Positions 26,047 through 63,392 of a stretch of 64,000 nucleotides of DNA are shown in pieces (within the stretch, counting starts at the first letter, position 1; every line of letters begins with the position of its first letter). Origin of the DNA: Gammaproteobacteria bacterium (GTDB lineage: Bacteria; Pseudomonadota; Gammaproteobacteria; Pseudomonadales; IMCC2047); assembly GCA_021773395.1 (NCBI GenBank), contig JAJFKB010000020.1, positions 62,001-126,000 on the forward strand, given 5' to 3'. A program made the position numbers and the translations under genes. The notes beneath the pieces are model-generated. The model had not been told where the DNA came from. It made no database searches and worked only from the letters and a program-made list of their open reading frames with translations.

Positions 26047-27894
26047 ATGCCCCAGCTCGCCGAAAACAAAAGTAAAACAACGACAATAGATCAAGCGTCC
26101 GCTAAAGCTAAGCGTAATCTTGACGCTCGCCCCATGATGGGGAATGAAGCCATAGCTCGTGGTGTCTGGGAAGCAGGCGTCAGAGTGGCCGCGGCTTATC
26201 CCGGAACGCCCAGCACCGAGATCATGGAAAATCTGGGTAAGTATCCAGCGGAAGATCTGCATGCTGAATGGTCGACCAATGAGAAAGTAGCACTGGATGT
26301 CGCCATCGGAGGCTCCTTTGCAGGTGTACGCTCATTCACATCGATGAAGCATGTTGGATTGAACGTCGCTTCAGATTCGCTCATGTCACAAACCTATATC
26401 GGAGTGAACGGTGCGCTGGTGCTGGTCGTTTGTGATGACCCAGGAATTCACAGTTCCCAGAATGAGCAAGACTCACGTATCTTCGGGCAACTGGCGATGG
26501 TTCCAGTACTGGAACCCACCGATGCCCAGGAAGCGCTGGATTATACCAAGCTGGCCTTCGATATTAGTGAGCAGTTTGATACACCGGTCATTGTGAGAAG
26601 TACAACACGCCTGTCTCACACGCGCAGTCTGGTTAAAACCGGGCCGCGTAAAGAGGTACCGTGCAAGGGCTTTTTGGAACAACCCACCAAGAACGTGATG
26701 ATTCCAGGTCACGCAAGAGTACGTCATGGCGCACTGCTGGAGCGCGAACGGCTGCTTAAGGAGTACCTGGAAGACTCTGAGCTGAACCGCTGGGAAGAGG
26801 GCAGTGATGAGGTAGGTATTGTCACTTTGAGTACAGCCTATACCTATGTGAAGGAGATGATGCCGGACGCCAGTGTGTTAAAGCTGGGGACATCCTATCC
26901 TTTACCTGAAGCAAAAATTCGTGAATTTTATGCGTCCGTCAAGCGCGTAATCGTGGTGGAGGAACTGGAGCCTATCATTGAAAACCAGCTCAAAGTTCTC
27001 GGATTGGAAGTAGAGGGCAAGTCTCTGTTTCCGCGAGAGGGTGAGTTTTCAACAGAAGTTGTCCAGGAAGGCTTTGCAAATGCAGGCTTGCTGCCACCAA
27101 TACCCAAACTGGAATTGATCGATATACAACCGATGGCGCGTCCTCCATTGTTATGCGCCGGTTGCCCACACACTACCGCTTATATGGCATTAAGAGCGCT
27201 GAATTCACGCGTTTCTGGTGATATTGGTTGCTACACACTGGCTGCTGTGGAACCACTTAAAGCAATTGATACCTCAGTCGCGATGGGCTCCAGTATTGGC
27301 AACGCAGCGGGTATCGCGATGGCAGGTACTGAAACGCGTCCCATTGTTGCGACGATTGGCGACTCCACCTTCCTGCATGCCGGCATTCCACCTTTGATTA
27401 ATGCCGTCTACAACAATGCTAATATTACGGTGTTGCTGTTGGATAATCACATCACCGCGATGACCGGCGGCCAGCATCATCCGGGTACTGGCAAGAATCT
27501 GCGCGGTGAAGTTGCCCCAAAAGTGGACTATGAAGCGCTGATTAAGTCGATTGGTGTGAAGTGGTTTAGGAAGATTGATTCGTACAACATGGGTAGCGTG
27601 TTTCAATCGTTGCGCGAAGCCACACTTTATAAAGGTGTCGCGGTGGTGATACTTGATCGGCCCTGCGTACTGGATCCGGTCAAACTCAAAGGACCAGCTT
27701 TTCAAGTTAAGTCTGAATCCTGTACTGGCTGCCAGGCTTGTATGAATCTGGGCTGTCCGGCCATTTCATGGAGCGATGAATTGTACGAAGGGCATCACAA
27801 AGTGCAAATTGATGAGGCTGCTTGTATTGGCTGCAGCCTTTGCGCCCAAGTCGGCTCAACCAACTGTATCCAACCGGTCGAAACAGAGCACTAA
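26047..27894 (+). CDS. iorA: Indolepyruvate ferredoxin oxidoreductase, alpha subunit
   Basis: 615 residues, the normal size of IorA. With IorB it oxidatively decarboxylates aryl pyruvates with CoA, reducing ferredoxin. The N-terminal domain has AAAYPGTPSTEIMENLG and a CAGCPHTTAY motif near residue 370. The thiamine-diphosphate domain follows (GDSTFLHAGIPPLINAVYNN, near 437), then a C-terminal pair of [4Fe-4S] motifs (CTGCQACMNLGCP near 558, CIGCSLC near 595). The stop shares bases with the start of the next gene (TAATG), so they are coupled. An oxygen-sensitive enzyme class in an apparent aerobe is notable but not unique. Confidence 0.93.
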   Translation: MPQLAENKSKTTTIDQASAKAKRNLDARPMMGNEAIARGVWEAGVRVAAAYPGTPSTEIMENLGKYPAEDLHAEWSTNEKVALDVAIGGSFAGVRSFTSMKHVGLNVASDSLMSQTYIGVNGALVLVVCDDPGIHSSQNEQDSRIFGQLAMVPVLEPTDAQEALDYTKLAFDISEQFDTPVIVRSTTRLSHTRSLVKTGPRKEVPCKGFLEQPTKNVMIPGHARVRHGALLERERLLKEYLEDSELNRWEEGSDEVGIVTLSTAYTYVKEMMPDASVLKLGTSYPLPEAKIREFYASVKRVIVVEELEPIIENQLKVLGLEVEGKSLFPREGEFSTEVVQEGFANAGLLPPIPKLELIDIQPMARPPLLCAGCPHTTAYMALRALNSRVSGDIGCYTLAAVEPLKAIDTSVAMGSSIGNAAGIAMAGTETRPIVATIGDSTFLHAGIPPLINAVYNNANITVLLLDNHITAMTGGQHHPGTGKNLRGEVAPKVDYEALIKSIGVKWFRKIDSYNMGSVFQSLREATLYKGVAVVILDRPCVLDPVKLKGPAFQVKSESCTGCQACMNLGCPAISWSDELYEGHHKVQIDEAACIGCSLCAQVGSTNCIQPVETEH

Positions 27895-28820
27895 TGATGA
27901 CTGAATTAAACCAGGCAAGTTCAAAAAACGCACAACCGGTCGCCCAGACTCAAGTTGCTAAAGTTCCCGTCAATGTGCTGATTGTTGGTGTAGGTGGTCA
28001 GGGTGTCATCATGGTTTCCAAAGTGTTGGCATCCCTTTGCCAGCAGCAGGGTTATGAGGTTAAACAGAGTGAAGTGCATGGCATGGCCAAGCGCGGCGGC
28101 TCGGTTTTCAGTCATGTACGTTTTGGTGAAAAGGTCTACTCGCCTACTATCCCGGTTGGGCAGGCCGATGTGCTGGTTGCACTGGAATGGGCCGAAGGGC
28201 TTCGCTGGTTGCCTTATCTAAAGCCGGAAACTGGTATCTTTATCGCCGACACACAGAAAATAGTACCTCCATTTGCCTGTCGTGATCGCAAGCATGGCGC
28301 GGCGAATGGTTATGCAAAAGAAACGGTTGCTGATATTTCACAGATGATCTCTAACTGTTATGCCGCCGATGCGGGCACTACGGCCGCCGAATTGGGGAAT
28401 GCAAGAGCTGCAAATACGTTATTGCTCGGTATGCTCTCCACCACACTGGATTTCCCAGAAAGTGAATGGCGCGATATTATTTCAAAATTTGTACCCCCCA
28501 AAACAATTGATATTAATATGCAGGCGTTTGATCAGGGCAGAGAGTGGGTAGAGCGATATGATCCCGCTGCGCTGGCTCAAGGGCAAGCCGAGGCCGGGTC
28601 TGTAGCTCAGCAGCCACATCAGGTGCAGTTTGAACTGCCTGTGATTACCGAGGCTTGGTGCAAAAGTTGTGATATTTGCGTTAAATTCTGCCCGGAGCGT
28701 TGTTTGAGCCTCAATGAGAATCAAGTTGCCGAATTAACCAAGCCTGAATTGTGCACACTCTGTCGGATCTGTGAGCGGTTATGTCCGGATTTTGCGATTT
28801 CTCTCAACTATAAACACTAA
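27894..28820 (+). CDS. iorB: Indolepyruvate ferredoxin oxidoreductase beta subunit with C-terminal dicluster ferredoxin domain
   Basis: 308 residues, longer than a plain IorB (about 190-230). The N-terminal gamma/beta-type domain has IVGVGGQGVIMVSKVLASL and VHGMAKRGGSVFSHVRFG. After a linker, residues about 254-305 form a 2x[4Fe-4S] ferredoxin domain: CKSCDICVKFCPERC and CTLCRICERLCPDF. This domain may act as the delta (ferredoxin) subunit that the following korABC genes lack. Two overlapping ATGs (27894, 27897) are possible. Third-position spacing and overlaps place it firmly in the operon. Confidence 0.88.
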   Translation: MMTELNQASSKNAQPVAQTQVAKVPVNVLIVGVGGQGVIMVSKVLASLCQQQGYEVKQSEVHGMAKRGGSVFSHVRFGEKVYSPTIPVGQADVLVALEWAEGLRWLPYLKPETGIFIADTQKIVPPFACRDRKHGAANGYAKETVADISQMISNCYAADAGTTAAELGNARAANTLLLGMLSTTLDFPESEWRDIISKFVPPKTIDINMQAFDQGREWVERYDPAALAQGQAEAGSVAQQPHQVQFELPVITEAWCKSCDICVKFCPERCLSLNENQVAELTKPELCTLCRICERLCPDFAISLNYKH

Positions 28821-28836
28821 CGGTAGCGGTTTTTCC

Positions 28837-29991
28837 ATGTCTGATTTATCCGAACCACGCCTTCTTAACCTGGAAGGCAATCATGCCTGTGCGCTCGGCG
28901 CCATCGCAGCGGGCTGTCGTTTTTACGCTGGCTACCCCATTACCCCTTCTTCCGAGATTGCCGAAAGAATGTCAAAAGAACTGCCCGGGGTGGATGGGAT
29001 TTTTATCCAAATGGAGGATGAAATAGCCTCTATGGGTGCGATCTTGGGTGCCTCCATGGGCGGCATGAAAGTAATGACAGCAACCAGTGGTCCTGGCTTT
29101 TCTTTAAAGCAAGAAAATCTGGGTTATGCCGCCGGTGCTGAAATTCCCTGCGTTGTCGTGAACGTGATGCGTGGCGGACCCAGTACCGGTTTGCCAACAC
29201 GACCCGCGCAAGGCGATATCATGCAGGCGCGCTGGGGCACTCACGGTGATCACCCGATTATCGTCATTACTCCGGCTTCTGTGCCTGAAATCTACGAGCA
29301 AACCATTCGCGCTTTTAATCTGGCGGAAACGCTTAGAGTCCCAGTGATTATTCTCTACGATGAAGCAATTGGGCATCTAAGAGAAACGGTGGAGATTAAG
29401 GATAGCAATAGTATTGAGATTAATAATCGCATATGGGCCAGCGAAGTTACCGATAGTTTTCAGCCCTACGCAGCCGGAGAGGATAAAATTCCTGAAATGG
29501 TACGCCCCGGTGATGGTTTCAGAACCCACACTACCGGCCTGACCCATGCGCCAGACGGTTTTCCGACGCAGGACCCAGAATTGGTGAGTCAGTATATGGA
29601 TCGATTGCTGGGCAAACTGGGTCACCACGGCGATTTGGTTGAGGGCTACGAGACGATTGAAGTGGAGGACGCGGAACTGCTTGTTGTTTCCTATGGCATT
29701 ACTTCAAGAGCGGCACGTCGAGCGATTAAGCTGGCGCGCGCAGAGGGTATCAAAGTCGGCATGTTCCGCCCGATCACACTGTGGCCGTTTCCTGCTGAGG
29801 CCTTTAAAGAGATCATAGCTCCAATTAAGAATGTACTGGTCCCGGAAATGAATGCCGGTCAGCTGATTGAAGAGATCGAACGTTACCGCCCGGAAGGATG
29901 TGACATAGAAGGCTTGAACCGCATTGATGGTGAAACAATTACTCCGGAACAGATCCTGGATAGAATAAGGGAGTTAGCAGCAAATGAGTGA
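28837..29991 (+). CDS. korA: 2-oxoacid:acceptor oxidoreductase subunit alpha (KorA-type)
   Basis: 384 residues from the ATG at 28837. It is the pyrimidine/CoA-side subunit of a 2-oxoglutarate-type ferredoxin oxidoreductase: FYAGYPITPSSEIAERM, MEDEIASMGAILGASMGG, TATSGPGFSLKQENLGYA and the domain II segment LLVVSYGITSRAARRA with VGMFRPITLWPFP. It should form a complex with KorB and KorC downstream and release reduced ferredoxin, CO2 and an acyl-CoA. The 2-oxoglutarate assignment follows from the family; a branched-chain or aryl substrate cannot be excluded, given the IOR genes next door. Confidence 0.9.
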   Translation: MSDLSEPRLLNLEGNHACALGAIAAGCRFYAGYPITPSSEIAERMSKELPGVDGIFIQMEDEIASMGAILGASMGGMKVMTATSGPGFSLKQENLGYAAGAEIPCVVVNVMRGGPSTGLPTRPAQGDIMQARWGTHGDHPIIVITPASVPEIYEQTIRAFNLAETLRVPVIILYDEAIGHLRETVEIKDSNSIEINNRIWASEVTDSFQPYAAGEDKIPEMVRPGDGFRTHTTGLTHAPDGFPTQDPELVSQYMDRLLGKLGHHGDLVEGYETIEVEDAELLVVSYGITSRAARRAIKLARAEGIKVGMFRPITLWPFPAEAFKEIIAPIKNVLVPEMNAGQLIEEIERYRPEGCDIEGLNRIDGETITPEQILDRIRELAANE

Positions 29992-30814
29992 GGTTGATAG
30001 CAAGTTCAACATCCGGGATTATTTAAGGGAACATATGTTTCCGCATTTTCTGTGTCCGGGCTGTGGGCATGGTATTGCCCTGCGCGCCCTGCTGTGGGCC
30101 ATTGATGAACTGGAGATTCCCAAAGATAAACTGGCATTTGTCTCAGGTATTGGCTGTTCTGGAAGACTGGGCGCTTATATTGATTCGAACACCTTTCACG
30201 TCACGCACGGTCGGCCATTAGCTTTCGCAACTGGATTGAAATTGGCACGACCAGATTTAGAAGTGATCGTGATCACCGGTGATGGTGATTGTCTGGCGAT
30301 TGGTGGCAATCACTTGATTCATGCCTGTCGGCGCAACCTCAATATCACCTGTATGATGCTGAATAATGAAGTTTACGGTATGACTGGAGGTCAGGTCTCA
30401 CCGACTACCAGTAGCAACCGTTTTACAACCACTACCCCGCACGGAAATTACGAACCGGTGTTTGATGCCTGTAAATTGGCGGAAGCAGCCGGTGCCGGTA
30501 TGGTGGGGCGCGAAATTACCCTGCAGACACCTGCACTGAAAAACGTACTCAAGGAAGGCTTGTCGCATAACGGTTTTTCCTTTGTTGAAGTGATGTCCGA
30601 TTGCACAGAAGTCTTTGGTCGAAAGAATGAGCTGGGTGATTCGGCAGAGATGGTGCTCACGCAAAAATCATCAGTCCGACCGGATGGTTATGATAATACT
30701 GTCGAACAACCCTTCCGCCCCAATTTCCTGAAAACCGGGGTGATGGCACGTAATGATCGCCCCGAGTATGCAGCGGCGTATCGACAGCACATCATGTCAA
30801 TGAAGGAAGGGTAG
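29984..30814 (+). CDS. korB: 2-oxoacid:acceptor oxidoreductase subunit beta (KorB-type)
   Basis: 276 residues. It is the thiamine-diphosphate-binding subunit with FLCPGCGHGIALRALLWA near residue 20, GIGCSGRLGAYIDSNTFHV, TGDGDCLAIGGNHLIHACRR (the GDG...N type TPP motif) and MLNNEVYGMTGGQVSPTT. It overlaps korA by 8 nt and is followed by korC after 4 nt, so the three are translated together. It has only the cysteines of one cluster-binding set, like other short KorB proteins. Confidence 0.93.
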   Translation: MSEVDSKFNIRDYLREHMFPHFLCPGCGHGIALRALLWAIDELEIPKDKLAFVSGIGCSGRLGAYIDSNTFHVTHGRPLAFATGLKLARPDLEVIVITGDGDCLAIGGNHLIHACRRNLNITCMMLNNEVYGMTGGQVSPTTSSNRFTTTTPHGNYEPVFDACKLAEAAGAGMVGREITLQTPALKNVLKEGLSHNGFSFVEVMSDCTEVFGRKNELGDSAEMVLTQKSSVRPDGYDNTVEQPFRPNFLKTGVMARNDRPEYAAAYRQHIMSMKEG

Positions 30815-30818
30815 AGCC

Positions 30819-31406
30819 ATGACTGAAATTGAAATTCGTATCAGCGGTAGCGGCGGGCAGGGGATCCTTCTGGCCGGTCGAATTCTCGCCGAAGCCTTGA
30901 CGATGGAAAAACTAAATGTAGCCCAATCGCAGAGCTATGAACCAACATCTCGCGGCGGTTTAAGCCGATCTGATTTGGTTGCCAGCACCCAAACGGTTGA
31001 TTATCCCCTGGCAAGTTCGCTCGACTATCTGGTGGTGTTACATAAAATCGCTACGGGAGCATCTGATCCTTTGTTAAAGGAAAGCAGCTTCAGCCTGATT
31101 GATACCAGTCTCGCCGATTATTATGCGGTAGGGAAGGGGAAGAGCCTGTACCTTCCCATAATTGAAACTGCCAAGAAAATGGGCAATGTCCGCTCTACTA
31201 ATATGATAGCTTTAGGGGCCTTGCTGGAGCTTGGTGATATTTGTGAAAAGCAAACCATTCTGGATGCGATCAAAAAAGTCGCACCTGCCAAACTGGTTGA
31301 ACCGGCATCTGAATCGGTTATGGAAGGTTATCGGCTGGCACAGAATGCTGAAGCGCCTGAGCAGGGAAGTCGAGTGCTGGAGCGGGTGCCGCTGGCTTCG
31401 GTGTAG
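30819..31406 (+). CDS. korC: 2-oxoacid:acceptor oxidoreductase subunit gamma (KorC-type)
   Basis: 195 residues. It is the gamma domain of the oxidoreductase (IRISGSGGQGILLAGRILAE, SQSYEPTSRGGLSRSDLV), which contributes to CoA and cluster-side interactions. It is the last gene of the operon iorA-iorB-korA-korB-korC. No separate delta ferredoxin gene follows; the C-terminal ferredoxin domain of the IorB-like protein may fill this role. No clear terminator is seen in the 260 bp after it. Confidence 0.92.
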   Translation: MTEIEIRISGSGGQGILLAGRILAEALTMEKLNVAQSQSYEPTSRGGLSRSDLVASTQTVDYPLASSLDYLVVLHKIATGASDPLLKESSFSLIDTSLADYYAVGKGKSLYLPIIETAKKMGNVRSTNMIALGALLELGDICEKQTILDAIKKVAPAKLVEPASESVMEGYRLAQNAEAPEQGSRVLERVPLASV

Positions 31407-33974: not shown

Positions 33975-36146
33975 TTACTCCCAGCTGGTGCTATATTCTA
34001 CAGGTGCCTTTTCACCTCTTTTTCTTCTGTCTAACGCTTGCTCTACGGTTTCAGCTTTAGCCGCAATGTCCAAGCCCGCACGACGGTCTGTAGGCACAGG
34101 GCCTTGCGCGTCAGGAGGAGGCACTTTGCTGGCAGGGAAGTAGGCAATACGATGTGTTTTGGGATCAATGTAATGATCCGGTCTGAGCTGCTTGCGATTA
34201 ACACCAGCGGTGGGATGGTCGCAATAATTATTGGGGTCGGGTTGATTGCATTGATCGCCAATAACCTCTAAATCCAGCCACCACTTTTTGGCATCGTTAG
34301 GCGTTCCGTTATTTAGCTTATCGTCCAGCCAGATTGCAAATGGAGCGATGATGGGTTTTAACCACATTGCATGAATACCTAACCAGCTGCCTACACGCGC
34401 GTAAAGCGGGCCATCCCAGGTGACATCTTTTGTGAGAGGGCATGTTTTAATGCAGCGGCCACAGGCGGAGCCCTTGGAATTTTGCATTCGATATTTGGCA
34501 CAACGTTCACTGTCAGGCTTCCAGGTTTCGTAGCCGTTAAACACTACCTTGTCACCAAAGGGTATTGATTGGCTTGGGCATTCACGGGCACATTTGACAC
34601 ATTTTGAACAGAATTGCTGCAACCCAAAATCAATCGGCTTGTCTGGCACCAAGGGCATGTCGGTGGTCAGCACAACTGTTTTTATACGTGGGCCCAAAAA
34701 GGGGTTGATGGCAGTTTCACCTATGCGGCTTTGTTCGCCTAGCCCCGCTAGTATGAGCAACGGTACATGCAGCACATCACTATCAATGCTGGTTTGTGCT
34801 CGAGCCGGATAGCCCAAACGGCGTATGTGATCAGAAATTGTTCCGGAAATTTCTGCGCCACGCATATAGGAACGCATAGATTGAGATCCGGATATCCAGT
34901 CATCGCCACAGGCGCCCTCGAATGTCTCATGCCCTTGATCAACCAGCATGACAACTGCGTATTTATGGTAGGGGTTAATGACAGAACCGTCTTTTCGATG
35001 GCTATACCAACAGTAATCCGGAATTTCACAAATTCCTGTAATTGAGGAGCCTATATAGTGGCTGAGAGCTTTGATTGCCTTGGTGTTCTCCAGTGCATCT
35101 TCTGTGCCCGGTGTAACCTGTGGGGCAGGTTCTCCGTCCTGATAGGGAACCATATTCCAAAGTAGCCCAAGAATACCTTGCGACAATGGGTGTTTGTAGG
35201 CCCAGCGCGGACGCTCTTTAAGTGCTCTCTTACCTAAATCACCACGTTCGGCACGAACATAAAAGTTGGCACGCTGTGGAATTCTGGGGACTTCATCGTC
35301 GAAGATATGAGTGGTTGGTCGGTCAACACGCTTTAATTTTTCAACCGGGTAGGGGCCAAAATGTGAGGGGCGGCGATTTCGGCGCCATCGTTCCAGTCCG
35401 GAAACCGCCCCGCTCAATCCAAAAAGATAGGGTAGATTTTTACCATCTGTAGCTTCTTGCGCTAACGGGGTATCAGTTGCTGCGGCATATTCAGTAGTGA
35501 CTGCAGCCAGGGTAAAGTTTTTTCCGACGTAAGGGTTGGCAAGTTCGCCTTCTTCGCGAATAGCTAATCCCGAGAGCACGGCGAGACGTTCCAGGTCAAT
35601 ATCAGTAACACCAGGCCAGTGCGCCTTTGCATGAAAACCCAGCGCTGCAATATGTCCGGCGAGAATCGCTGAAATTTCAGCTGCACGGGTAGTGGCCAAT
35701 TCATCCTCATAACCCTCTACCCATTGGTGAGCCAGATTGTTTGAATCGATAGGGTTGGAATGCTCGACTAACACCACTAATGCATGGCTATGTGCCTTGT
35801 GTTTTGGTGTCCCCGATATCCAGGCATTTTTTGGTAGCTCGCAAATCCCCATCATTGACGCGTCTAGAAAATAACCGGCACCCTTTAGATCTTGAGCTCT
35901 TCTTGCCAGATCATCTGGTACAGGTGCACGCTTAATAAATACCGTAACCTTTCTCAACTCTTCAAAGATGCTCCGATATTTACGTGTGGATTCCACTAAA
36001 GCCGTTTTAGCGTCTGAAATGACTGGCACAGAGTCGAGCGCTGGCAGTTGGGTTTCGTGATGAATGATCGCGGAGTCTTTAGGAAGTGTTTCTAACGGAA
36101 ATGGACCAAAGTCAACGGGGCGTGTGCGGCGTTTGTTGTTTAGCAT
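33975..36146 (-). CDS. Reductive dehalogenase-like cobalamin/Fe-S protein with internal duplication
   Basis: 723 residues. The C-terminal part has the two cluster motifs of reductive dehalogenases: CSKCVKCARECPSQSIP and a CxxYRMQNSKGSACGRCIKTCP-type arrangement beginning CAKYRMQ and ending CGRCIKTCP. There is no Tat signal and no membrane-anchor gene beside it, so it is probably soluble, as in the oxygen-tolerant catabolic group (NpRdhA-like, about 700 residues). The chain contains two related halves: DFGPFPLETL near residue 12 matches HFGPYPVEKL near 266, and AEISAILAGHIAALGFHAKA matches AEISGTISDHIRRLGYPARA. Only the second half has Fe-S cysteines. Divergent from an IclR regulator. Substrate unknown; dehalogenation is inferred. 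Confidence 0.85.
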   Translation of the reverse strand: MLNNKRRTRPVDFGPFPLETLPKDSAIIHHETQLPALDSVPVISDAKTALVESTRKYRSIFEELRKVTVFIKRAPVPDDLARRAQDLKGAGYFLDASMMGICELPKNAWISGTPKHKAHSHALVVLVEHSNPIDSNNLAHQWVEGYEDELATTRAAEISAILAGHIAALGFHAKAHWPGVTDIDLERLAVLSGLAIREEGELANPYVGKNFTLAAVTTEYAAATDTPLAQEATDGKNLPYLFGLSGAVSGLERWRRNRRPSHFGPYPVEKLKRVDRPTTHIFDDEVPRIPQRANFYVRAERGDLGKRALKERPRWAYKHPLSQGILGLLWNMVPYQDGEPAPQVTPGTEDALENTKAIKALSHYIGSSITGICEIPDYCWYSHRKDGSVINPYHKYAVVMLVDQGHETFEGACGDDWISGSQSMRSYMRGAEISGTISDHIRRLGYPARAQTSIDSDVLHVPLLILAGLGEQSRIGETAINPFLGPRIKTVVLTTDMPLVPDKPIDFGLQQFCSKCVKCARECPSQSIPFGDKVVFNGYETWKPDSERCAKYRMQNSKGSACGRCIKTCPLTKDVTWDGPLYARVGSWLGIHAMWLKPIIAPFAIWLDDKLNNGTPNDAKKWWLDLEVIGDQCNQPDPNNYCDHPTAGVNRKQLRPDHYIDPKTHRIAYFPASKVPPPDAQGPVPTDRRAGLDIAAKAETVEQALDRRKRGEKAPVEYSTSWE

Positions 36147-48438: not shown

Positions 48439-50487
<2,049 letters not shown>

Positions 50488-55370: not shown

Positions 55371-55469
55371 ATGAAGGTTTCTTTTCTCGGGTTAGGAAAT
55401 ATGGGGTCGGGTATTGCCAGCAATATTTTGAAGGCTGGTTTTAAGTTGACTTTTTGGGGCCGAACATAA
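55371..55469 (+). pseudogene. Truncated copy of a beta-hydroxyacid dehydrogenase gene
   Basis: The 32 codons from ATG to an in-frame TAA encode [20 protein letters not shown] and then [12 protein letters not shown], nearly the same as the N-terminus of the intact dehydrogenase starting at 59685. The nucleotide match is also high. The leader AAGGTGAA before the ATG is shared. Only the dinucleotide-binding beta-alpha-beta unit remains, so it is a duplicate that lost its 3' part. Confidence 0.85.
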
Positions 55470-55558
55470 GAGATGTACGGCGGTTTATAGGGCGAGTTAC
55501 TTCAGCATCAAGGGTAGTTTCTGATGAGAATGTATTTGATTAGAGAGCCGGAGTGCGC

Positions 55559-58528
55559 ATGATGAAAAGCACAATTCTACGTACAATCCTTTTCGGCTTG
55601 GGGCCAGCTATCAGTTTTATTGCTCGCAAGAGCCAGTCGTTTCGTGAAGAGCTAAGTAAGCACGACTGTATCTTTCAGATGAAAACGAAAAACAATAAAG
55701 TCGGTCGATACTTCACCATTTCAGGTGGTAAGGTTACGTCCGCCTCAGGAATTCATCCTAATCCAGACCTGATATTGTCATTTAATGATGTGGATGTTGC
55801 GCTGAAGGTTTTACGTCCCGATGCCAAGATTGACTTTAAGGTTCATGCGGCCAAAAACTTCCTTATGACCGTCGAGGGGGCCGATTCTCTGGCAAACTGG
55901 GTATTGCAGTTGCTCCAGCGGGTGGCCTATGAGGGCTTTTCGTACGGGAAAGAAATGCCGGATGGTTGCAAGCGTTACACGACGCTCACCAATGGAGGCC
56001 CTCTGCATGTTTATGTTAGAGATGGCAAGATAGTACGGCTAACTCCTCTTGAGATCACAGATGAAGATGCGCCAAGCTGGGAGGTAGAGGCTAGGGGGCG
56101 TAAGTTCAAACCGCAGCGTAGGGCTGCCGTTGCGCCTCATGCATTATCCACCAAAGGTGCCGTGTATTCGGAGAATCGAGCACTGTATCCCATGAAGCGG
56201 GTTGATTTTGATCCGAATGGCGAGCGCAATCAGCAGAATCGGGGGATTTCCGGTTATGAACGGATCAGCTGGGATGAGGCGCTGGATATTGTCTCAACGG
56301 AGATCAAGCGCCAGAAGCGAGAATATGGCCCCGGTTCTATTTTCATACCGACATCTTCACACCATCAGTGGGGCAACGTGGGTTATTACCTGAGCTCATT
56401 GATACGATTTGGCAACTTGATTGGTTTTACCCGGATGGAGATGAACCCTGACAGTTGGGAAGGCTTCTTCTGGGGAGCCCAACATCATTTTGGTAATAGT
56501 ATGCGAGTCGGTTTGTCGCCCACTTACGGTACGCTAGAAGATTGTCTGCAGGAGGCCGATCAAATTGTTTTCTGGTCTCATGACCCCGAAACGACTTGTC
56601 ACGGATATGCAGGTTTTGAAAGTACCGAACGGCGTATGTGGGGCAGGGAGTTAGGTATCGACTTCATCCACATTGATCCCTATTACAATGTGACGGCGCA
56701 ATTGTTTGGTGGTAAATGGATACCGATTAGGCCGACGACGGACCCGGCTCTGGCCATCGCCATTATGCATGTGTGGCTAACCGAGGAGCTCTACGACAAA
56801 GAGTATGTTACGGAGCGTACTACCGGCTTTGATGAGTGGCGCGATTACTTGCTGGGTACTGATGATGGTGTACCCAAAACGCCGGAATGGCAGGAGCCTG
56901 AGACGGGTGTACCGGCTCGAGATGTCCGTGCGCTGGCCCGCTCATGGGCTGGGAAAAAGACTTATTTGGGCGTACAGCTTGGTGGAGCCTGCAGAGGGGC
57001 GACTGGGGCACAGTGGGCACGCTGTACCTATATGCTGATGGCCATGCAGGGTTGGGGTAAACCGGGTATCAATATGGGGGGGCTCAGTAATGGTGCGCCT
57101 GTTGATCTCAATTTTTACTTTCCCGGTTACGCGGATGGTGGCATATCCGGTGATTTGGAATTTACCGGAAATGCGGTCAACAACTACCAGCGTATGCCGC
57201 ATATCCTTACCATGAACCCGGTTAAGCAGAAGATTCCCAAGCAGAAAATTCCCGAGGCCATTATTGAGGGTAAGGCGACAGGTTATCGGTGGGATTGCAC
57301 CTCCCAGGAGGCCCAATTTACTCCCTTCGATTATCCCATGGATGGATTTTCGCCGGTACGCATGCTCTACCGCTACGGTGCATCTACATTCGGTACCGCA
57401 ACTGATACCGGGCGCTGGGTAGACGCCTACCGCCATGAAAGTATCGAGTTCATCGTAAATCAAACCGTTTTTGTGGAAGGTGACGCGCAGTACGCCGATA
57501 TTATTTTGCCAGCATGTACTAACTTGGAGCGTTGGGATATCGGGGAATGGACGAACTGCGGTGGTTACGGGCTTGATTGGATGGATGCCGTTAACCATAG
57601 AATAATTGCTCTGCAGCAAAAGTGTATTGAGCCGCTGGGTGAATCCAAGTCGGACTACCAAATTTTTTCTGACATTCTTGAGCGTTTGGGATTGAGCTCA
57701 GTGTTTACTGAGGGTTGTAGTGAGTTTGACTGGTGTAAACGCATCTTTGATGGGTCTGATTTGCCACAGCATATTTCCTGGAAAAACTTTGTGAAAAAAG
57801 GCTATTTCGTGGTTCCTGCAGTACACGAGAAGGAATTGCGTCCAGCTGTCAGCATGAGGTGGTTTGCGGAAGGGCGGAAAAAAGATATACCGGAACCATT
57901 CCCGCTGCCTTCTCAGTATGCCGAAGAGTTCGGCTATGGTGCACAAACCCCCAGCGGTAAATTTGAATTTGTCCCCACAATTTTGAAGCGTAATGAAGCG
58001 AAGAACCCGGATCGGCCTGCGCTGAACCGTTATGTTCCCTCTTGGGAGGGACCTCATTCAGAGGATCTTGTGGGCAAATATCCACTACAGATGATAGCTA
58101 CCCACAGTCGTTATAGCTTTCACACATTTTCAGACAATACGATGTTTACCGACCAGATCAAGGATCACCGTGTGCTCATTGATGGGCATTACTATTGGGT
58201 AGCACGTATTAGCTTACTGGATGCCGAAGAAAGAGGTATTAAGCAGAACGATTTGGTGAAGGTTTACAACGCGAGAGGAGCTGTATTGTGTGCAGTGGAT
58301 ATCTCTCCTCTTGTTACGCCAGGGGTGGTGAAAAGTTTTCAATCCAGTGCCAAGTATCAGCCGTTAGACGTGGATGGTGAAGTGCTTGATATTGGCGGTA
58401 GTCTTAATGTATTGACGCCCAGCCGTTCTCAAACAAACGGAACGCATTCAATGGCCCCTAATTCAACCATGGTGCAAATTGAGAAATTTACAAATGTTGA
58501 TGCACTTAATAAAGCGCGTGCGGCATAA
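55559..58528 (+). CDS. Molybdopterin oxidoreductase, pyrogallol transhydroxylase-like large subunit with N-terminal SCP2-like domain
   Basis: 989 residues. Residues about 1-120 look like an SCP2 sterol-carrier-type domain (ISGGKVTSASGIHPNPDLIL, SFNDVDVALKVLRPD). The remaining 870 residues have the size and order of the large subunit of Pelobacter pyrogallol-phloroglucinol transhydroxylase, a DMSO-reductase-family enzyme without its own Fe-S cluster. His268, Asp298 and Ser299 (in SSHHQWGN and NPDSWEG) keep the 30/31-residue spacing of that enzyme's active-site His, Asp and molybdenum-ligand Ser, as I recall them. FWSHDPETTCHGYAGFESTE and ADIILPACTNLERWD are family segments. No Tat signal, so cytoplasmic. 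Start ATG 55559 follows GGAG. The substrate is unknown; a hydrophobic hydroxylated ring is inferred. Confidence 0.87.
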   Translation: MMKSTILRTILFGLGPAISFIARKSQSFREELSKHDCIFQMKTKNNKVGRYFTISGGKVTSASGIHPNPDLILSFNDVDVALKVLRPDAKIDFKVHAAKNFLMTVEGADSLANWVLQLLQRVAYEGFSYGKEMPDGCKRYTTLTNGGPLHVYVRDGKIVRLTPLEITDEDAPSWEVEARGRKFKPQRRAAVAPHALSTKGAVYSENRALYPMKRVDFDPNGERNQQNRGISGYERISWDEALDIVSTEIKRQKREYGPGSIFIPTSSHHQWGNVGYYLSSLIRFGNLIGFTRMEMNPDSWEGFFWGAQHHFGNSMRVGLSPTYGTLEDCLQEADQIVFWSHDPETTCHGYAGFESTERRMWGRELGIDFIHIDPYYNVTAQLFGGKWIPIRPTTDPALAIAIMHVWLTEELYDKEYVTERTTGFDEWRDYLLGTDDGVPKTPEWQEPETGVPARDVRALARSWAGKKTYLGVQLGGACRGATGAQWARCTYMLMAMQGWGKPGINMGGLSNGAPVDLNFYFPGYADGGISGDLEFTGNAVNNYQRMPHILTMNPVKQKIPKQKIPEAIIEGKATGYRWDCTSQEAQFTPFDYPMDGFSPVRMLYRYGASTFGTATDTGRWVDAYRHESIEFIVNQTVFVEGDAQYADIILPACTNLERWDIGEWTNCGGYGLDWMDAVNHRIIALQQKCIEPLGESKSDYQIFSDILERLGLSSVFTEGCSEFDWCKRIFDGSDLPQHISWKNFVKKGYFVVPAVHEKELRPAVSMRWFAEGRKKDIPEPFPLPSQYAEEFGYGAQTPSGKFEFVPTILKRNEAKNPDRPALNRYVPSWEGPHSEDLVGKYPLQMIATHSRYSFHTFSDNTMFTDQIKDHRVLIDGHYYWVARISLLDAEERGIKQNDLVKVYNARGAVLCAVDISPLVTPGVVKSFQSSAKYQPLDVDGEVLDIGGSLNVLTPSRSQTNGTHSMAPNSTMVQIEKFTNVDALNKARAA

Positions 58529-58546
58529 CAGATATAGAGAATAGTT

Positions 58547-59425
58547 ATGGATAAGTGGAACCTGATAATTAACGTTGACCGTTGCGATAACTGCAACAAT
58601 TGTGTTCTGGCGGCAAAAGATGAGTACATAGGTAACGAATTTCCTGGTTACAGTGCGCCAGCAGCAAAAGAGGGTGCAGAGTTGATCACTATCACTCGTA
58701 AAATGCGCGGTGATACCCCTTTAGTAGATGCAGCCTACTTAATTAAAATGTGTAATCACTGCGATAACGCCCCCTGTATGAAGGTGGCTGGTGATGCTAT
58801 TCGCAAGCGTGAAGACGGCATCGTGATTATTGACCCAGAGAAGGCCAAGGGGCGTAAGGACATTGTGAAGTCTTGCCCCTATGGCGCTATTGTCTGGAAT
58901 GAAGAGAGCGAATTACCACAAACCTGGTACTTTGACGCCCATCTTTTAGATCAAGGTTGGACTCAACCGCGCTGCGCTCAATCTTGTCCTACGGGTGTGT
59001 TTGAGGCTGTCAAAATCTCCGATGATGAAATGGCAAGTCGTGCTGAGGCCGAAGATCTGGAAGTGCTTCAGCCACAATTTGGTGCCAAGCCACGAGTCTA
59101 CTACCGCAACCTTTATCGATTTAGCAAATGTTTTATTGGCGCTACTGTTATTGCGGATATCGCTGGGGTAGAGGAGTGTGTGCAGGGGGCAGAAGTAACG
59201 TTGTTTCAAAGTGATAGTTGTGTCGGTATGGCAAAGACGGATGCCTTTGGTGAATTTAAACTTGATAAGCTGGATCCGAAGAGTGGTAGCTACACCGTAA
59301 AAGTACAGCACCCTGATCACGGGGCGCTAGAGGTTAAGGCGACGTTGAATGATAGTCTTTATTTGGGCGAAATGAAATTGATAAAGGCCTCAGCAACTAG
59401 CCGAAGTGAAACTGAAAAAGCCTAA
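58547..59425 (+). CDS. Transhydroxylase-type Fe-S small subunit with C-terminal beta-barrel domain
   Basis: 292 residues. Ferredoxin-like domains carry cysteines for three [4Fe-4S] clusters: CDNCNNC near residue 13, CNHCDNAPC near 69, SCPYGAI near 105 and CAQSCPTG near 145. From about residue 195 to 285 a CarboxypepD_reg/transthyretin-like beta-domain follows (GVEECVQGAEVTLFQSD, KTDAFGEFKLDKLDP). The same layout, three clusters plus a beta-barrel, is known from the small subunit of pyrogallol transhydroxylase (about 275 residues). The gene begins 18 bp after the large subunit and is its operon partner; it would pass electrons to or from the molybdenum site. Confidence 0.9.
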   Translation: MDKWNLIINVDRCDNCNNCVLAAKDEYIGNEFPGYSAPAAKEGAELITITRKMRGDTPLVDAAYLIKMCNHCDNAPCMKVAGDAIRKREDGIVIIDPEKAKGRKDIVKSCPYGAIVWNEESELPQTWYFDAHLLDQGWTQPRCAQSCPTGVFEAVKISDDEMASRAEAEDLEVLQPQFGAKPRVYYRNLYRFSKCFIGATVIADIAGVEECVQGAEVTLFQSDSCVGMAKTDAFGEFKLDKLDPKSGSYTVKVQHPDHGALEVKATLNDSLYLGEMKLIKASATSRSETEKA

Positions 59426-59684
59426 GCATGAGGCCATGCAGTGCTTGGCAATTATCGCCTGTATTAATTGAAAATTACTGCTTGGTTCGGTGTTCAGGAT
59501 ACTTGTTAAGTAAACACAAATACTTGAAAGGATAGGTGAAGCATTGTCTAGGGTGCCTTTTTTCTATCGGTGAACCAATATACTGTTGGGTTGGCGATGA
59601 ATATTCTTCACTTTAGAATAAAAGTCAATTTGGTGGCTTGTGCTGCTGTTTAAACAATCAATAATTTGAACGAAGGTGAAAATT

Positions 59685-60566
59685 ATGAAAGTTGCTTTTT
59701 TAGGTTTAGGTAATATGGGGTCGGGCATGGCTGGCAATATTTTAAAGGCTGGCTTTGATTTGACTGTTTGGAATCGGACTCAAGAAAAAATGGCCCCCTT
59801 TTTAGAAAAAGGCGCCAAGGGTACAGCGCTTCCAAGTGAGGCTGTGAAGGATGTGGACGTAGTTGTAACCAGCTTGATGGACGACCAGTCGATACTCGAC
59901 TTGTTGCAGGGGGATGGTGGAGTACTTGCCGCAATGAAGCCTGGCAGTGTTCATTTATGTGTTACTACAATCTCCCCTAAATGTGCCGATCAGTTAGCAG
60001 CTATCCATAGTGAGCATGGTAGCAGATTTGTCGCAGGTCCAGTATTGGGAAGGCCTGATGCTGCTGCTGACGGTGACTTGATGACACTTCTTGCTGGAGA
60101 TAAAGAAGCCATAGACCTCGCTACTCCTGTTTGTGAATCCTATGCCAGAGCTGTGATTCCTGTTGGCGAAAGGCCCAGTGTTGCTTCAACGATGAAGCTT
60201 TGTTTGAACTACAGCGTTATCTCAATCATTGAGATGATGGGTGAGGTCTATGCTTGTGCTGAAAAGGCAGGTTTAAACCTGGATATGCTAAAGAAATTCT
60301 ATCAGGATCAGATCTTTGCACATCCTGTACTCAAAATGTATGCAGGTAAGTTGCGTGACCGGACGTTTGATGACGGTGGTTTTAAGATGACTGGTGGTTT
60401 GAAAGATGTGACTCTGATGTTGGAGGCCGCTGAGAGTTTTGGTGCCAAGTTCGAGATCGGGAGCATTATTGAGAAAAAAATGCAGACTGCCCTAGATCAA
60501 GGTATGGCGTCCAAAGACTGGAGCGCAATTGCTGAAATCAGTCGTCAACAAGCTGGTTTGGACTAA
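59685..60566 (+). CDS. NAD(P)-dependent beta-hydroxyacid dehydrogenase
   Basis: 293 residues of the 3-hydroxyisobutyrate dehydrogenase / 6-phosphogluconate dehydrogenase-like family. N-terminal [20 protein letters not shown], substrate-region ISPKCADQLAAIHSEHGSRF and VAGPVLGRPDAAADGDL, and the catalytic Lys in TMKLCLNYSVIS (about residue 172). It oxidises a beta-hydroxy acid or reduces a semialdehyde. The ATG at 59685 follows GAAGGTG. It lies 260 bp after the Fe-S subunit gene and has a truncated twin upstream of the molybdoenzyme. Confidence 0.9.
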   Translation: MKVAFLGLGNMGSGMAGNILKAGFDLTVWNRTQEKMAPFLEKGAKGTALPSEAVKDVDVVVTSLMDDQSILDLLQGDGGVLAAMKPGSVHLCVTTISPKCADQLAAIHSEHGSRFVAGPVLGRPDAAADGDLMTLLAGDKEAIDLATPVCESYARAVIPVGERPSVASTMKLCLNYSVISIIEMMGEVYACAEKAGLNLDMLKKFYQDQIFAHPVLKMYAGKLRDRTFDDGGFKMTGGLKDVTLMLEAAESFGAKFEIGSIIEKKMQTALDQGMASKDWSAIAEISRQQAGLD

Positions 60567-60842: not shown

Positions 60843-61262
60843 ATGAACATTGAAATGAGCCAAATATTACTGCTATTTGGTTTTTCCTGGCTGCTGGTGG
60901 GTTGTTTTCTTGGTTTAATACAAGGCATTAAGCATACTCAGCACCATGAAAATCTTGACCAATATGCCAGGTCGGGAGAACTTCTTGATTATCATCGCGA
61001 ATTTAATTCTTTTAAGCAGAAAACGACAGCACATACTCATAGCATGCTATTCCCTGTTGTTGTAATACTGATAGCGCTTTCGATGCCTCTGAATGGTTAT
61101 GCAGGAGACAATCCAATTGTTCTTGGGGTGGGACTGATAGCGGCCACGGTGATTTGGACCGTTGGCGGGGTTATCAACGTAAAGGTATTTAAGGTTATTG
61201 GTGATCTCCTGCTTATGCTATCAATTATGCTGGCCATTGAAGGCTTGGTTAATGGATTGTGA
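60843..61262 (+). CDS. Small four-helix membrane protein of unknown function
   Basis: 139 residues. Four hydrophobic helices are visible, about residues 7-26, 66-82, 92-110 and 114-137. The loop after helix 1 is rich in histidine (HTQHHENLDQYARSGELLDY, then KTTAHTHSMLFP). Small four-helix proteins with conserved histidines at helix 2 include haem-containing styrene oxide isomerase, but the likeness is only by eye. Ribosome site TAGGAG precedes the ATG. It sits between the dehydrogenase and the E1 genes and may take part in the same pathway. Confidence 0.65.
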   Translation: MNIEMSQILLLFGFSWLLVGCFLGLIQGIKHTQHHENLDQYARSGELLDYHREFNSFKQKTTAHTHSMLFPVVVILIALSMPLNGYAGDNPIVLGVGLIAATVIWTVGGVINVKVFKVIGDLLLMLSIMLAIEGLVNGL

Positions 61263-61413: not shown

Positions 61414-62421
61414 ATGGCGCTGACAAAGAAGCAGAAAAAGTTATTATACATCAATCTGACTCGTGCAATGACGCTCGACAGAATGATGATGCGAATTATC
61501 CGGGCGGGCAGGATGACGGGCTTTTACCACGAAGGTGGTGTTTCATTAGCTCCCGGTGTAGCAATCGGATCATTTCTGCGTAAAGACGACTGTCTCGGCC
61601 CACATTATCGTGCGCATGGTATTGCCGAGATGGTTTCTAAGGGCGTTGATATTCCTTCCTACCTTGCTGAGCATATGGGGCGGGAAGATGGGTGTTGTAA
61701 AGGGCGAAGCAGCTATCACTGGTCATACCCTGATGACAAGATGTATGGGGCGGGTGCTAACCTTGGCATGCCCTATGGCCTGGCCTGCGGATATTCCTTT
61801 GCGGCTAAATATAAGGGTACTGATCAAGTGGCTCTGACTGCTTTCGGAGACGGTAGCTTCCAAGAAGGACGCTCTTATGAAGGGCTGAGTATGGCCTCCG
61901 CCTGGAAGTTGCCGGCTATCTTTTGGTGTAATAACAATGGCATTGCCCAGCATACAGAACTGAGCAATGTCTATCCCATCGAAGATCTTTCTAGAGTGGC
62001 GGCAGCTCTCGGCATGCCCACCATGATAGTTGATGGCCAGGATCTCTTTGCCTGTGGCGAGGCGGCACTAAAAGCGATTGATCATGCCCGTAAAGGTAAG
62101 GGGCCATTTTTTGTTGAGGCCAAATATCTGCGTGCGCAGGAGCACAATGTAGGCGGCTTGAACACCAGTGGTGACGTACCGCGCAGTCAAGAACTTATGG
62201 AGAAGTGGAAAGAAGAGCGAGATCCACTGAAACTGGCGACGCTGCAGTTGCTTGACGAGGGAATTCTGACCCAGAAGGAGATCGAGAAGATCCAAAAAGA
62301 CGCAGAGGATGAGGCTGATAAGATTGAGGAAGCTGCCGACCAATCACCCAAGGCGCTTCCGTCAATTGAAGAGCTGCTGGCTGCTGTGTATGCACCTGAC
62401 ACTGTCGTGGAGAATGCCTAA
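61414..62421 (+). CDS. Thiamine-dependent dehydrogenase E1 component, alpha subunit (acetoin/pyruvate type)
   Basis: 335 residues, close in length to acetoin dehydrogenase E1 alpha. The TPP motif GDGSFQEGR through CNNNGIAQHT (about residues 148-178) is complete, as are DDCLGPHYRAHGIAEMVSKG and GAGANLGMPYGLACGYSF. It decarboxylates a 2-oxo acid or cleaves an acyloin such as acetoin and hands the acyl group to lipoate on E2. The stop overlaps the E1 beta start (TAATG). The C-terminal part is unusually rich in Glu/Asp/Lys (QKDAEDEADKIEEAADQ). Confidence 0.9.
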   Translation: MALTKKQKKLLYINLTRAMTLDRMMMRIIRAGRMTGFYHEGGVSLAPGVAIGSFLRKDDCLGPHYRAHGIAEMVSKGVDIPSYLAEHMGREDGCCKGRSSYHWSYPDDKMYGAGANLGMPYGLACGYSFAAKYKGTDQVALTAFGDGSFQEGRSYEGLSMASAWKLPAIFWCNNNGIAQHTELSNVYPIEDLSRVAAALGMPTMIVDGQDLFACGEAALKAIDHARKGKGPFFVEAKYLRAQEHNVGGLNTSGDVPRSQELMEKWKEERDPLKLATLQLLDEGILTQKEIEKIQKDAEDEADKIEEAADQSPKALPSIEELLAAVYAPDTVVENA

Positions 62422-63392
62422 TGAGTGAAGTTCGAGAGCTGACTTTTAGCGAGGCCATTAACGAGGCCTACATTGAAGAAATGCAGTGTGATGAAAATGT
62501 CTTTTTGTTTGGTGAGTGTATACGTGCGGGCACCTTTCCCCATACGGCGGGATTGTTAAAAAAATTCGGTGAAAAACGGGTTTTAGATTCCCCTATTGCA
62601 GAAGCCAATATGGCAGGTTTTGCCTTGGGCGCTGCTCAGGAGGGCCTCAGACCGGTGGTGGACTTTATGTATGCCGGTTTTTCTTACTATGCAGCAACGG
62701 AAATTTTCCTGAATACAGCGTCGTACTATCATGTGCATGGGAGCCAGCACCCCGTACCCATCGTTTATGTGGGTACCTGCGGTGTTGGCAGGCGCGTGGG
62801 TTACGAGCACGCTACTCCTGTCTATGGCACCGCGATACACCATCCGGGATTGAAGGTTTGTATGCCATCGACTCCTTATGATGCGAAGGGGCTAATGAAG
62901 GCGGCAATTAGAGATAATAATCCAGTGTTTTTCCTCTGGCATACAACTATGGTCGCTCAAAAGGGACCAGTACCCGAAGAGGAATATATCGTGCCGTTGG
63001 GCTTGGCTGACGTTAAGCGGGAAGGCACGGATGTCACCATACTAACGCTTGGGTTACAGGTGCATAACGCACTTGCTGTAGCTGAAACCCTCCAAGATGA
63101 AATCAGTGTTGAGGTGGTTGATGCTCGCAGCGTTGAACCTTTTGATCTGGAAACGTTGCTGAAGTCAGTGGAGAAGACAACACGATTAGTTATTGTTGAC
63201 GAAGATATAGAACGTGCCGGGTTTGCAGCGGAAATTTCTGCTTTGATGATGGAGCAGGGATATGATTTGTTGGACGCACCGGTTAAACGTGTTTGTCATC
63301 CAAACTTCCCTTCCCCGGGTGGGTATATGGATGCTTACACCATGCCCACTCCAGAGCGGATTGAAGATGCCGTTCGTGAAGTCTGTCGCTAA
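62421..63392 (+). CDS. Thiamine-dependent dehydrogenase E1 component, beta subunit
   Basis: 323 residues, the transketolase-like beta subunit of an acetoin/pyruvate-type complex. FSEAINEAYIEEMQCDENVF, the PIAEANMAGFALGAAQEGLR region, GTCGVGRRVGYEHATPVYGT and VEVVDARSVEPFDLETLLKS are family segments. It pairs with the overlapping E1 alpha subunit to form alpha2-beta2 E1. The E2 gene starts 12 bp after its stop. Confidence 0.92.
   Translation: MSEVRELTFSEAINEAYIEEMQCDENVFLFGECIRAGTFPHTAGLLKKFGEKRVLDSPIAEANMAGFALGAAQEGLRPVVDFMYAGFSYYAATEIFLNTASYYHVHGSQHPVPIVYVGTCGVGRRVGYEHATPVYGTAIHHPGLKVCMPSTPYDAKGLMKAAIRDNNPVFFLWHTTMVAQKGPVPEEEYIVPLGLADVKREGTDVTILTLGLQVHNALAVAETLQDEISVEVVDARSVEPFDLETLLKSVEKTTRLVIVDEDIERAGFAAEISALMMEQGYDLLDAPVKRVCHPNFPSPGGYMDAYTMPTPERIEDAVREVCR

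Follow-up and report, generated by a model that had tools for sequence, protein, structure and literature searches.

A 64,000-nucleotide stretch of a gammaproteobacterial genome (GenBank assembly GCA_021773395.1, contig JAJFKB010000020.1, forward-strand positions 62,001 to 126,000; hereafter the window) encodes a two-subunit molybdenum enzyme whose large subunit begins with a domain resembling the lipid/sterol-carrier domain SCP2. Judged from its sequence, the gene pair is a molybdenum bis-molybdopterin guanine dinucleotide (Mo-bis-MGD) enzyme of the Pelobacter transhydroxylase/resorcinol hydroxylase branch (AthLS); it departs from the Pelobacter type in its N-terminal extension and in a small subunit with nine cluster cysteines, yet stays within that family. 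We propose, with a probability of roughly 0.48, that the SCP2-like domain holds a lipophilic phenol for O2-independent hydroxyl transfer or hydroxylation at the molybdenum site.

Both genes lie on the forward strand at the positions given in a preliminary description of this DNA. The large (Mo) subunit, an open reading frame of 989 residues counted from the ATG at 55559, occupies 55559 to 58525 (the stop codon ends at 58528, and a GTG at 55553 is an alternative start), and the small (Fe-S) subunit, 292 residues, occupies 58547 to 59425. Residues 139 to 978 of the large subunit (55973 to 58492) form a transhydroxylase-type core, along the full length of which phmmer aligned 4v4c_A, the large subunit of Pelobacter pyrogallol hydroxytransferase, at an E value of 5.9e-264; the next solved enzymes for this core are dimethyl sulfoxide (DMSO) and trimethylamine N-oxide reductases, at 1e-61 or weaker. 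In Pfam, PF21423 (AhtL-like_1st) scores 80.7 bits in the core against a cut-off of 27, and PF00384 (molybdopterin domain) and PF01568 (dinucleotide-binding domain) are also present in the large subunit. The 4v4c_A alignment and PF21423 bear out the transhydroxylase-type core that had been proposed, and in our trees the core adjoins Pelobacter AthL, not another DMSO-reductase branch.

The active-site spacing claimed for the large subunit likewise holds: His268 (56360 to 56362) and Asp298-Ser299 (56450 to 56455) align with Pelobacter His144 and Asp174-Ser175, while Tyr524 (57128 to 57130) and Tyr670 (57566 to 57568) align with Tyr404 and Tyr560. We take these five Pelobacter positions to be active-site residues, with Ser175 as the molybdenum ligand. 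In the 95 extended proteins counted below, the histidine, the serine and the first tyrosine are invariant (95/95 each), the aspartate is kept in 92/95 and the second tyrosine in 89/95. The large subunits of loci L072, L075 and L124 have isoleucine at the aspartate position and retain the serine ligand. Serine is given as the Mo ligand of the RhL/PgtL family in Wells et al. (PMC10100899), where RhL and PgtL are placed in one Ser-ligand family. By eye, the start of the core shows no Cys-cluster motif in the large-subunit sequence, i.e., no FS0 iron-sulfur cluster.

The extension as a whole comprises residues 1 to 138, longer than the roughly 115 residues first ascribed to it, and its SCP2-like part spans residues 19 to 115 (55613 to 55903, forward strand). 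We compared a profile of the aligned N-termini of 40 relatives with a profile built on 31 SCP2 domains encoded by the host or by other genomes of its class; hhalign matched the two with a probability of 88.8% (P = 2.5e-6) over 93 collinear columns. With either side reversed the probability was 0.7% and 0.4%, and 150 of 152 decoy segments taken from neighbouring protein families stayed at or below 2.0%, the remaining two being the AthL family's own N-terminus. SCP2 (PF02036) was also the sole Pfam family for the N-terminus searched as a single sequence, at E values of 0.13 to 0.16 and scores of 12.8 to 13.1 bits (0.13 and 13.1 bits for residues 1 to 126) against a cut-off of 21.3, and no NCBIfam family matched residues 1 to 124 at an E value of 0.01. 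Among the N-termini of the 40 relatives, Pfam returned SCP2 at E values of 1 or below for 14 (best, 0.0013) and Alkyl_sulf_C for 3; when PDB sequences were searched with the N-terminal profile, no SCP2 chain was recovered, and one unrelated chain appeared at an E value of 0.39. The SCP2-like N-terminus that had been proposed thus stands by profile comparison and falls short of the single-sequence Pfam cut-off; we regard the relationship as well supported at this level of comparison. Ala81, Lys99, Gly107 and Trp114 are invariant in 40/40 aligned N-termini, a hydrophobic N-terminal stretch is also conserved, and the extension domain is present once in the host genome.

The view of the fusion as a singular case is not supported by a wider survey. 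A pattern scan of named genomes recovered at least 593 stretches, at least 529 of which encode some relative (tblastn, E value of 1e-3, a limit loose enough that molybdoenzymes of more remote kinship may be among them); of the best 80 loci, which we retained, 77 match from query residue 10 or earlier. Counting the host, relatives were found in 3 of 96 genomes among its kin and, under a stricter limit, in 2 of 369 genomes of its class. The family of genome G461 had a match in 13 of 249 genomes and the phylum of Moorella in 10 of 398, with 4 extended and 9 extension-free proteins among the 13 matches listed for the latter; no relatives turned up in the families, of 2 genomes and 1 genome, to which two genomes with benzoyl-CoA reductase belong. 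Before counting, we excluded 21 of the 127 initial rows, of which 109 had the N-terminal domain: copies (L023, L058, L142, L178, L144 and L063, so that one extended gene, present as L058 = L142, is absent altogether), two rows each of L148 and L153 (the broken G507 gene), fragments (L005, L155, L071, L070, L080, L082, L152, L147 and L174), L003 (the window, re-entered from its own sequence) and, from L163, a second enzyme that is unrelated. The resulting 106 AthL-type proteins comprise 95 extended members (window included) and 11 extension-free ones (Pelobacter included); the only four rows at 50% identity or above that lack the domain either lie at the end of a contig or are the latter half of a gene that is broken.

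Core-only trees were built on 59 and 46 chosen rows, two outgroups standing alongside the 95 and 11 proteins. All 46 extended members of the 59-row tree fell on one side of a single branch with a Shimodaira-Hasegawa-like approximate likelihood ratio (SH-aLRT) support of 99, as did all 38 in the 46-row tree (bootstrap/SH-aLRT of 100/99, the split recurring in 100% of the 200 bootstrap trees); in either tree Pelobacter AthL is the extension-free row closest to them. The labels of the extended members span Pseudomonadota, Myxococcota, Bacillota and Chloroflexota, and a single gain of the SCP2-like domain followed by spread would be the simplest reading of this distribution. Moorella sulfitireducens (L089) has two copies separated by about 10 kb, one extended and the other extension-free, the latter truncated by the end of the stretch. 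In locus L161 (genome G591) about 12.6 kb separates two large-subunit genes that both have the extension, and DUF1302, DUF1329 and MMPL genes are also present.

The small subunit matches 4v4c_B over residues 1 to 258 (E value of 1.4e-68), and its C-terminal part resembles CarboxypepD_reg with a score under the Pfam cut-off. The "same three-cluster" layout attributed to it has to be amended, as only 9 of the 12 Pelobacter cluster cysteines are kept; the changes are C23 to alanine, C126 to tryptophan and C129 to aspartate (Pelobacter numbering). We assign the retained cysteines to FS1 (C13, C16, C19 and C147) and FS3 (C69, C72, C77 and C110); at the FS2 positions A23, W127 and D130 stand in place of cysteine and C143 remains. 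In the small-subunit alignment the W127-x-x-D130 motif (58925 to 58936, forward strand) lies where Pelobacter has C126-x-x-C129, likewise assigned to FS2. PMC5338063 lists the NarH ligands as C16, C19, C22 and C263 for FS1, C26, C244, C247 and C259 for FS2, and C184, C187, C192 and C227 for FS3; by spacing against this table Pelobacter C23, C126, C129 and C145 form the FS2 set, and interpolation between the end points of the NarH match puts W127 and D130 of the window protein within two residues of NarH C244 and C247.

This loss is common. Across 104 small-subunit rows, which count one gene twice (L154 = L164), all 12 cysteines are kept in 16: Pelobacter, those extension-free members whose small subunit could be located, plus eight extended members (L077, L081, L085, L088, L089, L091, L168 and L170), none with a Pseudomonadota label. 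The remaining 88 rows, including the window, lack the full set of FS2 cysteines, 86 having tryptophan and aspartate at the C126 and C129 positions, one tryptophan and glutamate, and one a gap. C23 is retained in L163, L165 and L166 (family of G461), a group that sits at the base of the Pseudomonadota members in the 59-row tree and whose fork is unresolved in the 46-row tree. Loss of the FS2 cysteines requires a single change on the 46-row tree, with states scored for 39 rows and not for 7 (those of L004, L006, L145 and L146 were read from the same-genome loci L009, L010, L165 and L166). In ethylbenzene dehydrogenase FS2 sits between FS1 and FS3, 6.6 and 5.4 Å away, according to PMC8840923. Because FS0 is absent and FS2 appears to be lost, the Fe-S chain of the window enzyme is probably not a continuous wire for electrons; this speaks for transfer of a hydroxyl, which in Pelobacter involves no net redox, more than for a hydroxylase that exports electrons. 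The FS2 loss also makes testable, by comparison of twelve- and nine-cysteine relatives, the question of whether transhydroxylase Fe-S clusters carry electrons.

In the mechanism we propose, the SCP2-like domain would bind a lipophilic phenol or polyphenol, taken from or near the membrane, and present its ring to the molybdenum site, where a hydroxyl would be put on or moved without O2; the broken Fe-S chain would tip this toward transfer over net hydroxylation. The gene neighbourhoods of relatives were counted in 96 loci, which leave out L058 (3.4 kb) and L063 (the same place as L162) and include L164, which is of the extension-free type, and L071, whose gene starts past the contig. Genes of fumarylacetoacetate-hydrolase type (FAH) occur in 53 of these loci, VOC genes in 45 and AMP-forming ligases in 36; FAH or VOC is present in 56 and both in 42, and many relatives in Burkholderiales, Rhizobiales and Pseudomonas have VOC (extradiol-dioxygenase-type) and FAH-type genes close by. 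L164, the sole extension-free copy from the family of G461, has a UbiD-type decarboxylase nearby. Of 40 control stretches chosen, 29 existed and the 28 of at least 14 kb were used; FAH and VOC were each found in 0/28 and an AMP-forming ligase in 1/28. The uptake-related families OmpW, DUF1302, DUF1329 and FadL occur in 20, 17, 17 and 8 of the 96 loci, respectively, and at least one of them lies near 44 of the 79 loci of at least 15 kb versus 0 of 28 controls, which are imperfect (Fisher P = 1.5e-8, overstated, as the loci are kin). These uptake genes make the hydrophobic ring substrate suggested in the preliminary description plausible.

Several points weigh against our proposal. The queries for the uptake-gene test were drawn from the relative loci themselves, which are mutually related, and G466 (Pseudomonas), G470 (Paraburkholderia) and G473 (Ramlibacter) contributed no control stretch, their chosen contigs being too short. 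Near its own gene pair the window has a TonB receptor and none of OmpW, FadL, DUF1302 or DUF1329; moreover, its branch of the tree consists mostly of FAH/VOC loci while its downstream set recurs on another branch, so that gene context follows the enzyme tree imperfectly. To these must be added the sub-threshold Pfam score of the extension and the PDB search described above. The FS2 cysteine loss says nothing direct about chemistry, and RhL, which may belong to the extended clade, acts on resorcinol, a compound that is not lipophilic.

The genes downstream of the pair suggest what could become of the product. All on the forward strand, they are a 3-hydroxyisobutyrate-dehydrogenase-family oxidoreductase (HIBADH, 59676 to 60566; PF03446 and PF14833; nearest solved chain, 4gbj), a 139-residue protein that looks hydrophobic by eye (60843 to 61262; no Pfam family over cut-off) and the alpha (61414 to 62421; PF00676) and beta (62421 to 63392; PF02779 and PF02780) subunits of a thiamine diphosphate (ThDP)-dependent dehydrogenase E1. 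Past the window (L007:10406-15617) follow E2, E3, a beta-diketone-hydrolase-like crotonase-fold protein (OCH) and an aldehyde dehydrogenase (ALDH). For OCH, matches to both 2j5g (a beta-diketone hydrolase) and 1o8u (6-oxocamphor hydrolase) have E values of about 2e-36, compared with 4e-17 for the best enoyl-CoA hydratase, and E3 alone among the four ThDP-complex proteins reaches its NCBIfam cut-off. In the host, the product would pass to the dehydrogenase, the beta-diketone hydrolase, the aldehyde dehydrogenase and the ThDP E1-E2-E3 complex, a conserved set that could open and break the ring without a dioxygenase. The nine-gene set (AthL, AthS, HIBADH, OCH, ALDH, E1 alpha, E1 beta, E2 and E3) is complete in L050, a Janthinobacterium metagenome-assembled genome, and partial where stretches end in L158 (8 genes), L162 (7) and L157 (5), which rules out that the downstream genes are unique to the host. 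HIBADH copies 58 to 60% identical to that of the window lie near AthL in L050, L157 and L158, the 139-residue protein has a 37% identical counterpart in the L050 cluster, and a ThDP E1 gene occurs near AthLS in 9 of the 96 loci, window included. Just upstream of the large subunit, a 32-codon frame (55371 to 55469) resembles the start of HIBADH at 59676 and looks like the leftover of a duplicate.

The host had been described as an apparent aerobe. This is doubtful because its genome encodes benzoyl-CoA reductase subunit C (G000:C26:17983-19122; 655 bits against an NCBIfam cut-off of 421), and on this evidence we dropped the view of a simple aerobe and read the host as a facultative anaerobe. 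Of 16 further genomes that encode the extended enzyme, Sedimenticola alone has this subunit above the cut-off; therefore, the extended enzyme is not tied to that lifestyle. Elsewhere in the window, positions 26047 to 31406 and 5645 to 9145 contain several 2-oxoacid/indolepyruvate:ferredoxin oxidoreductase-type genes. A 723-residue protein at 33975 to 36146 (reverse strand) looks reductive-dehalogenase-like by eye, with the Fer4_7 ferredoxin domain as its only Pfam match, and positions 48463 to 50487 encode a flavoenzyme of the old-yellow-enzyme/2-enoate-reductase type, whose best NCBIfam match, a mycofactocin-system old yellow enzyme, is below cut-off.

The alternative that survives best, although we think it somewhat doubtful, is that the window encodes an ordinary ortholog of Azoarcus anaerobius RhLS: RhL would itself be extended, a resorcinol-type ring would be hydroxylated with water while the electrons are exported in some way, and the neighbouring ThDP complex would fill the ring-breaking role of the pathway's pyruvate-dehydrogenase-like enzyme. 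Matches in 13 of 249 genomes of the G461 family, which may include Azoarcus and Thauera, are in keeping with this, as is the presence of the extension in every row at 50% identity or above whose frame reaches the start; the ThDP E1 genes near 9 of the 96 loci also fit. A further pointer is a second molybdopterin enzyme of 742 residues (L008:2643-4871), encoded on the host contig about 17 kb downstream of AthLS, which reaches no NCBIfam cut-off and is 36 to 38% identical to enzymes encoded near AthL in L163, L165 and L166. Second molybdopterin enzymes lie near the extended gene in L163, L165, L166, L088 and L089, that of L163 having an N-terminal Fe4S4 domain. A second molybdenum enzyme belongs to the Azoarcus resorcinol pathway, and the presence of L008:2643-4871 therefore raises the odds of an RhLS ortholog slightly. 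Treatment of RhL and PgtL as one Ser-ligand family, as in PMC10100899, points the same way. Against it, electron export would not be easy for an enzyme that has lost the FS2 cysteines, and genes of the beta-diketone hydrolase and HIBADH type are not known to belong to the Azoarcus pathway.

It is unlikely, though worth weighing, that the SCP2-like domain is real and tethers the enzyme to a membrane or another protein, or helps in its assembly, in place of carrying a substrate. Resorcinol hydroxylation in A. anaerobius is reported to be membrane associated; the conserved hydrophobic stretch would suit such a role, and the four residues invariant in the aligned N-termini could mark an interface. 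However, hydrophobic-uptake genes are commoner near these loci than in controls, and in PMC6747719 the SCP2 domain of UbiJ is described as binding lipophilic ubiquinone intermediates, with the same proposed for UbiT in the O2-independent pathway. That the extension is unrelated to SCP2 and the profile match spurious is highly improbable: a single-sequence score under the curated Pfam cut-off and the lack of an SCP2 chain among PDB sequences would fit, but the P value and collinearity of the match, the 150 decoys and two reversed controls at or below 2.0%, and the standing of SCP2 as the commonest Pfam family among the relatives' N-termini (14/40) speak against it.

A bolder extension of our proposal, which we offer tentatively and consider rather unlikely as a whole, would see these proteins as widespread lipid-carrier-tethered Mo hydroxyl transferases in which SCP2 supplies a Ser-ligated molybdenum site with lipophilic phenols, such as rings of the alkylresorcinol or terpenoid type, the FS2-less small subunit being structural and no electrons being exported. 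Aerobes would in this way make non-catecholic rings into substrates for extradiol cleavage, and facultative anaerobes such as the host would use a dioxygenase-free ring-breaking route through beta-diketone hydrolase and the ThDP complex. Among the papers listed by full-text searches, whose coverage leaves out most subscription journals, we found no description of an SCP2-molybdoenzyme fusion. If our proposal of a lipophilic substrate is right, a lipid-binding-type domain was built once into an O2-independent aromatic hydroxylase now found in at least four phyla, and surveys of O2-dependent monooxygenases would have overlooked a route for hydrophobic phenols; if Azoarcus RhL carries the extension, the fusion is already present in a characterised enzyme.

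Among known systems, Pelobacter AthLS/PgtLS (4v4c) shares the full core, the serine Mo ligand with the His/Asp/Tyr/Tyr positions, and residues 1 to 258 of the small subunit; it differs in having no SCP2-like extension, all 12 cluster cysteines and a small polar substrate, and its Arg153 and Trp354 correspond to Tyr277 and Leu474 in the window protein. The window enzyme resembles A. anaerobius RhLS in having ThDP-complex genes nearby, as in the pathway of the latter. It also belongs to the same Ser-ligand RhL/PgtL family (PMC10100899). Ethylbenzene dehydrogenase and its relatives likewise perform O2-independent hydroxylation with a Mo-bis-MGD enzyme and an Fe-S subunit (PMC8840923), whereas these members of DMSO reductase subfamily II have an aspartate Mo ligand, FS0 and a complete FS0-to-FS4 chain that leads to a heme subunit. 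Catechol dehydroxylases (Dadh, Hcdh and others) are also bis-MGD enzymes that act on phenolic rings, but they form a separate clade near acetylene hydratase, apart from pyrogallol hydroxytransferase (PMC7028382). For the SCP2-like fusion itself the nearest known parallel, by analogy, is UbiJ and UbiT, in which an SCP2 domain serves ring hydroxylation of a lipophilic phenol; a ubiT-ubiU gene fusion has been reported (both from PMC6747719), although UbiT is usually a separate protein and UbiU-UbiV are U32-motif Fe-S proteins, not molybdenum enzymes.

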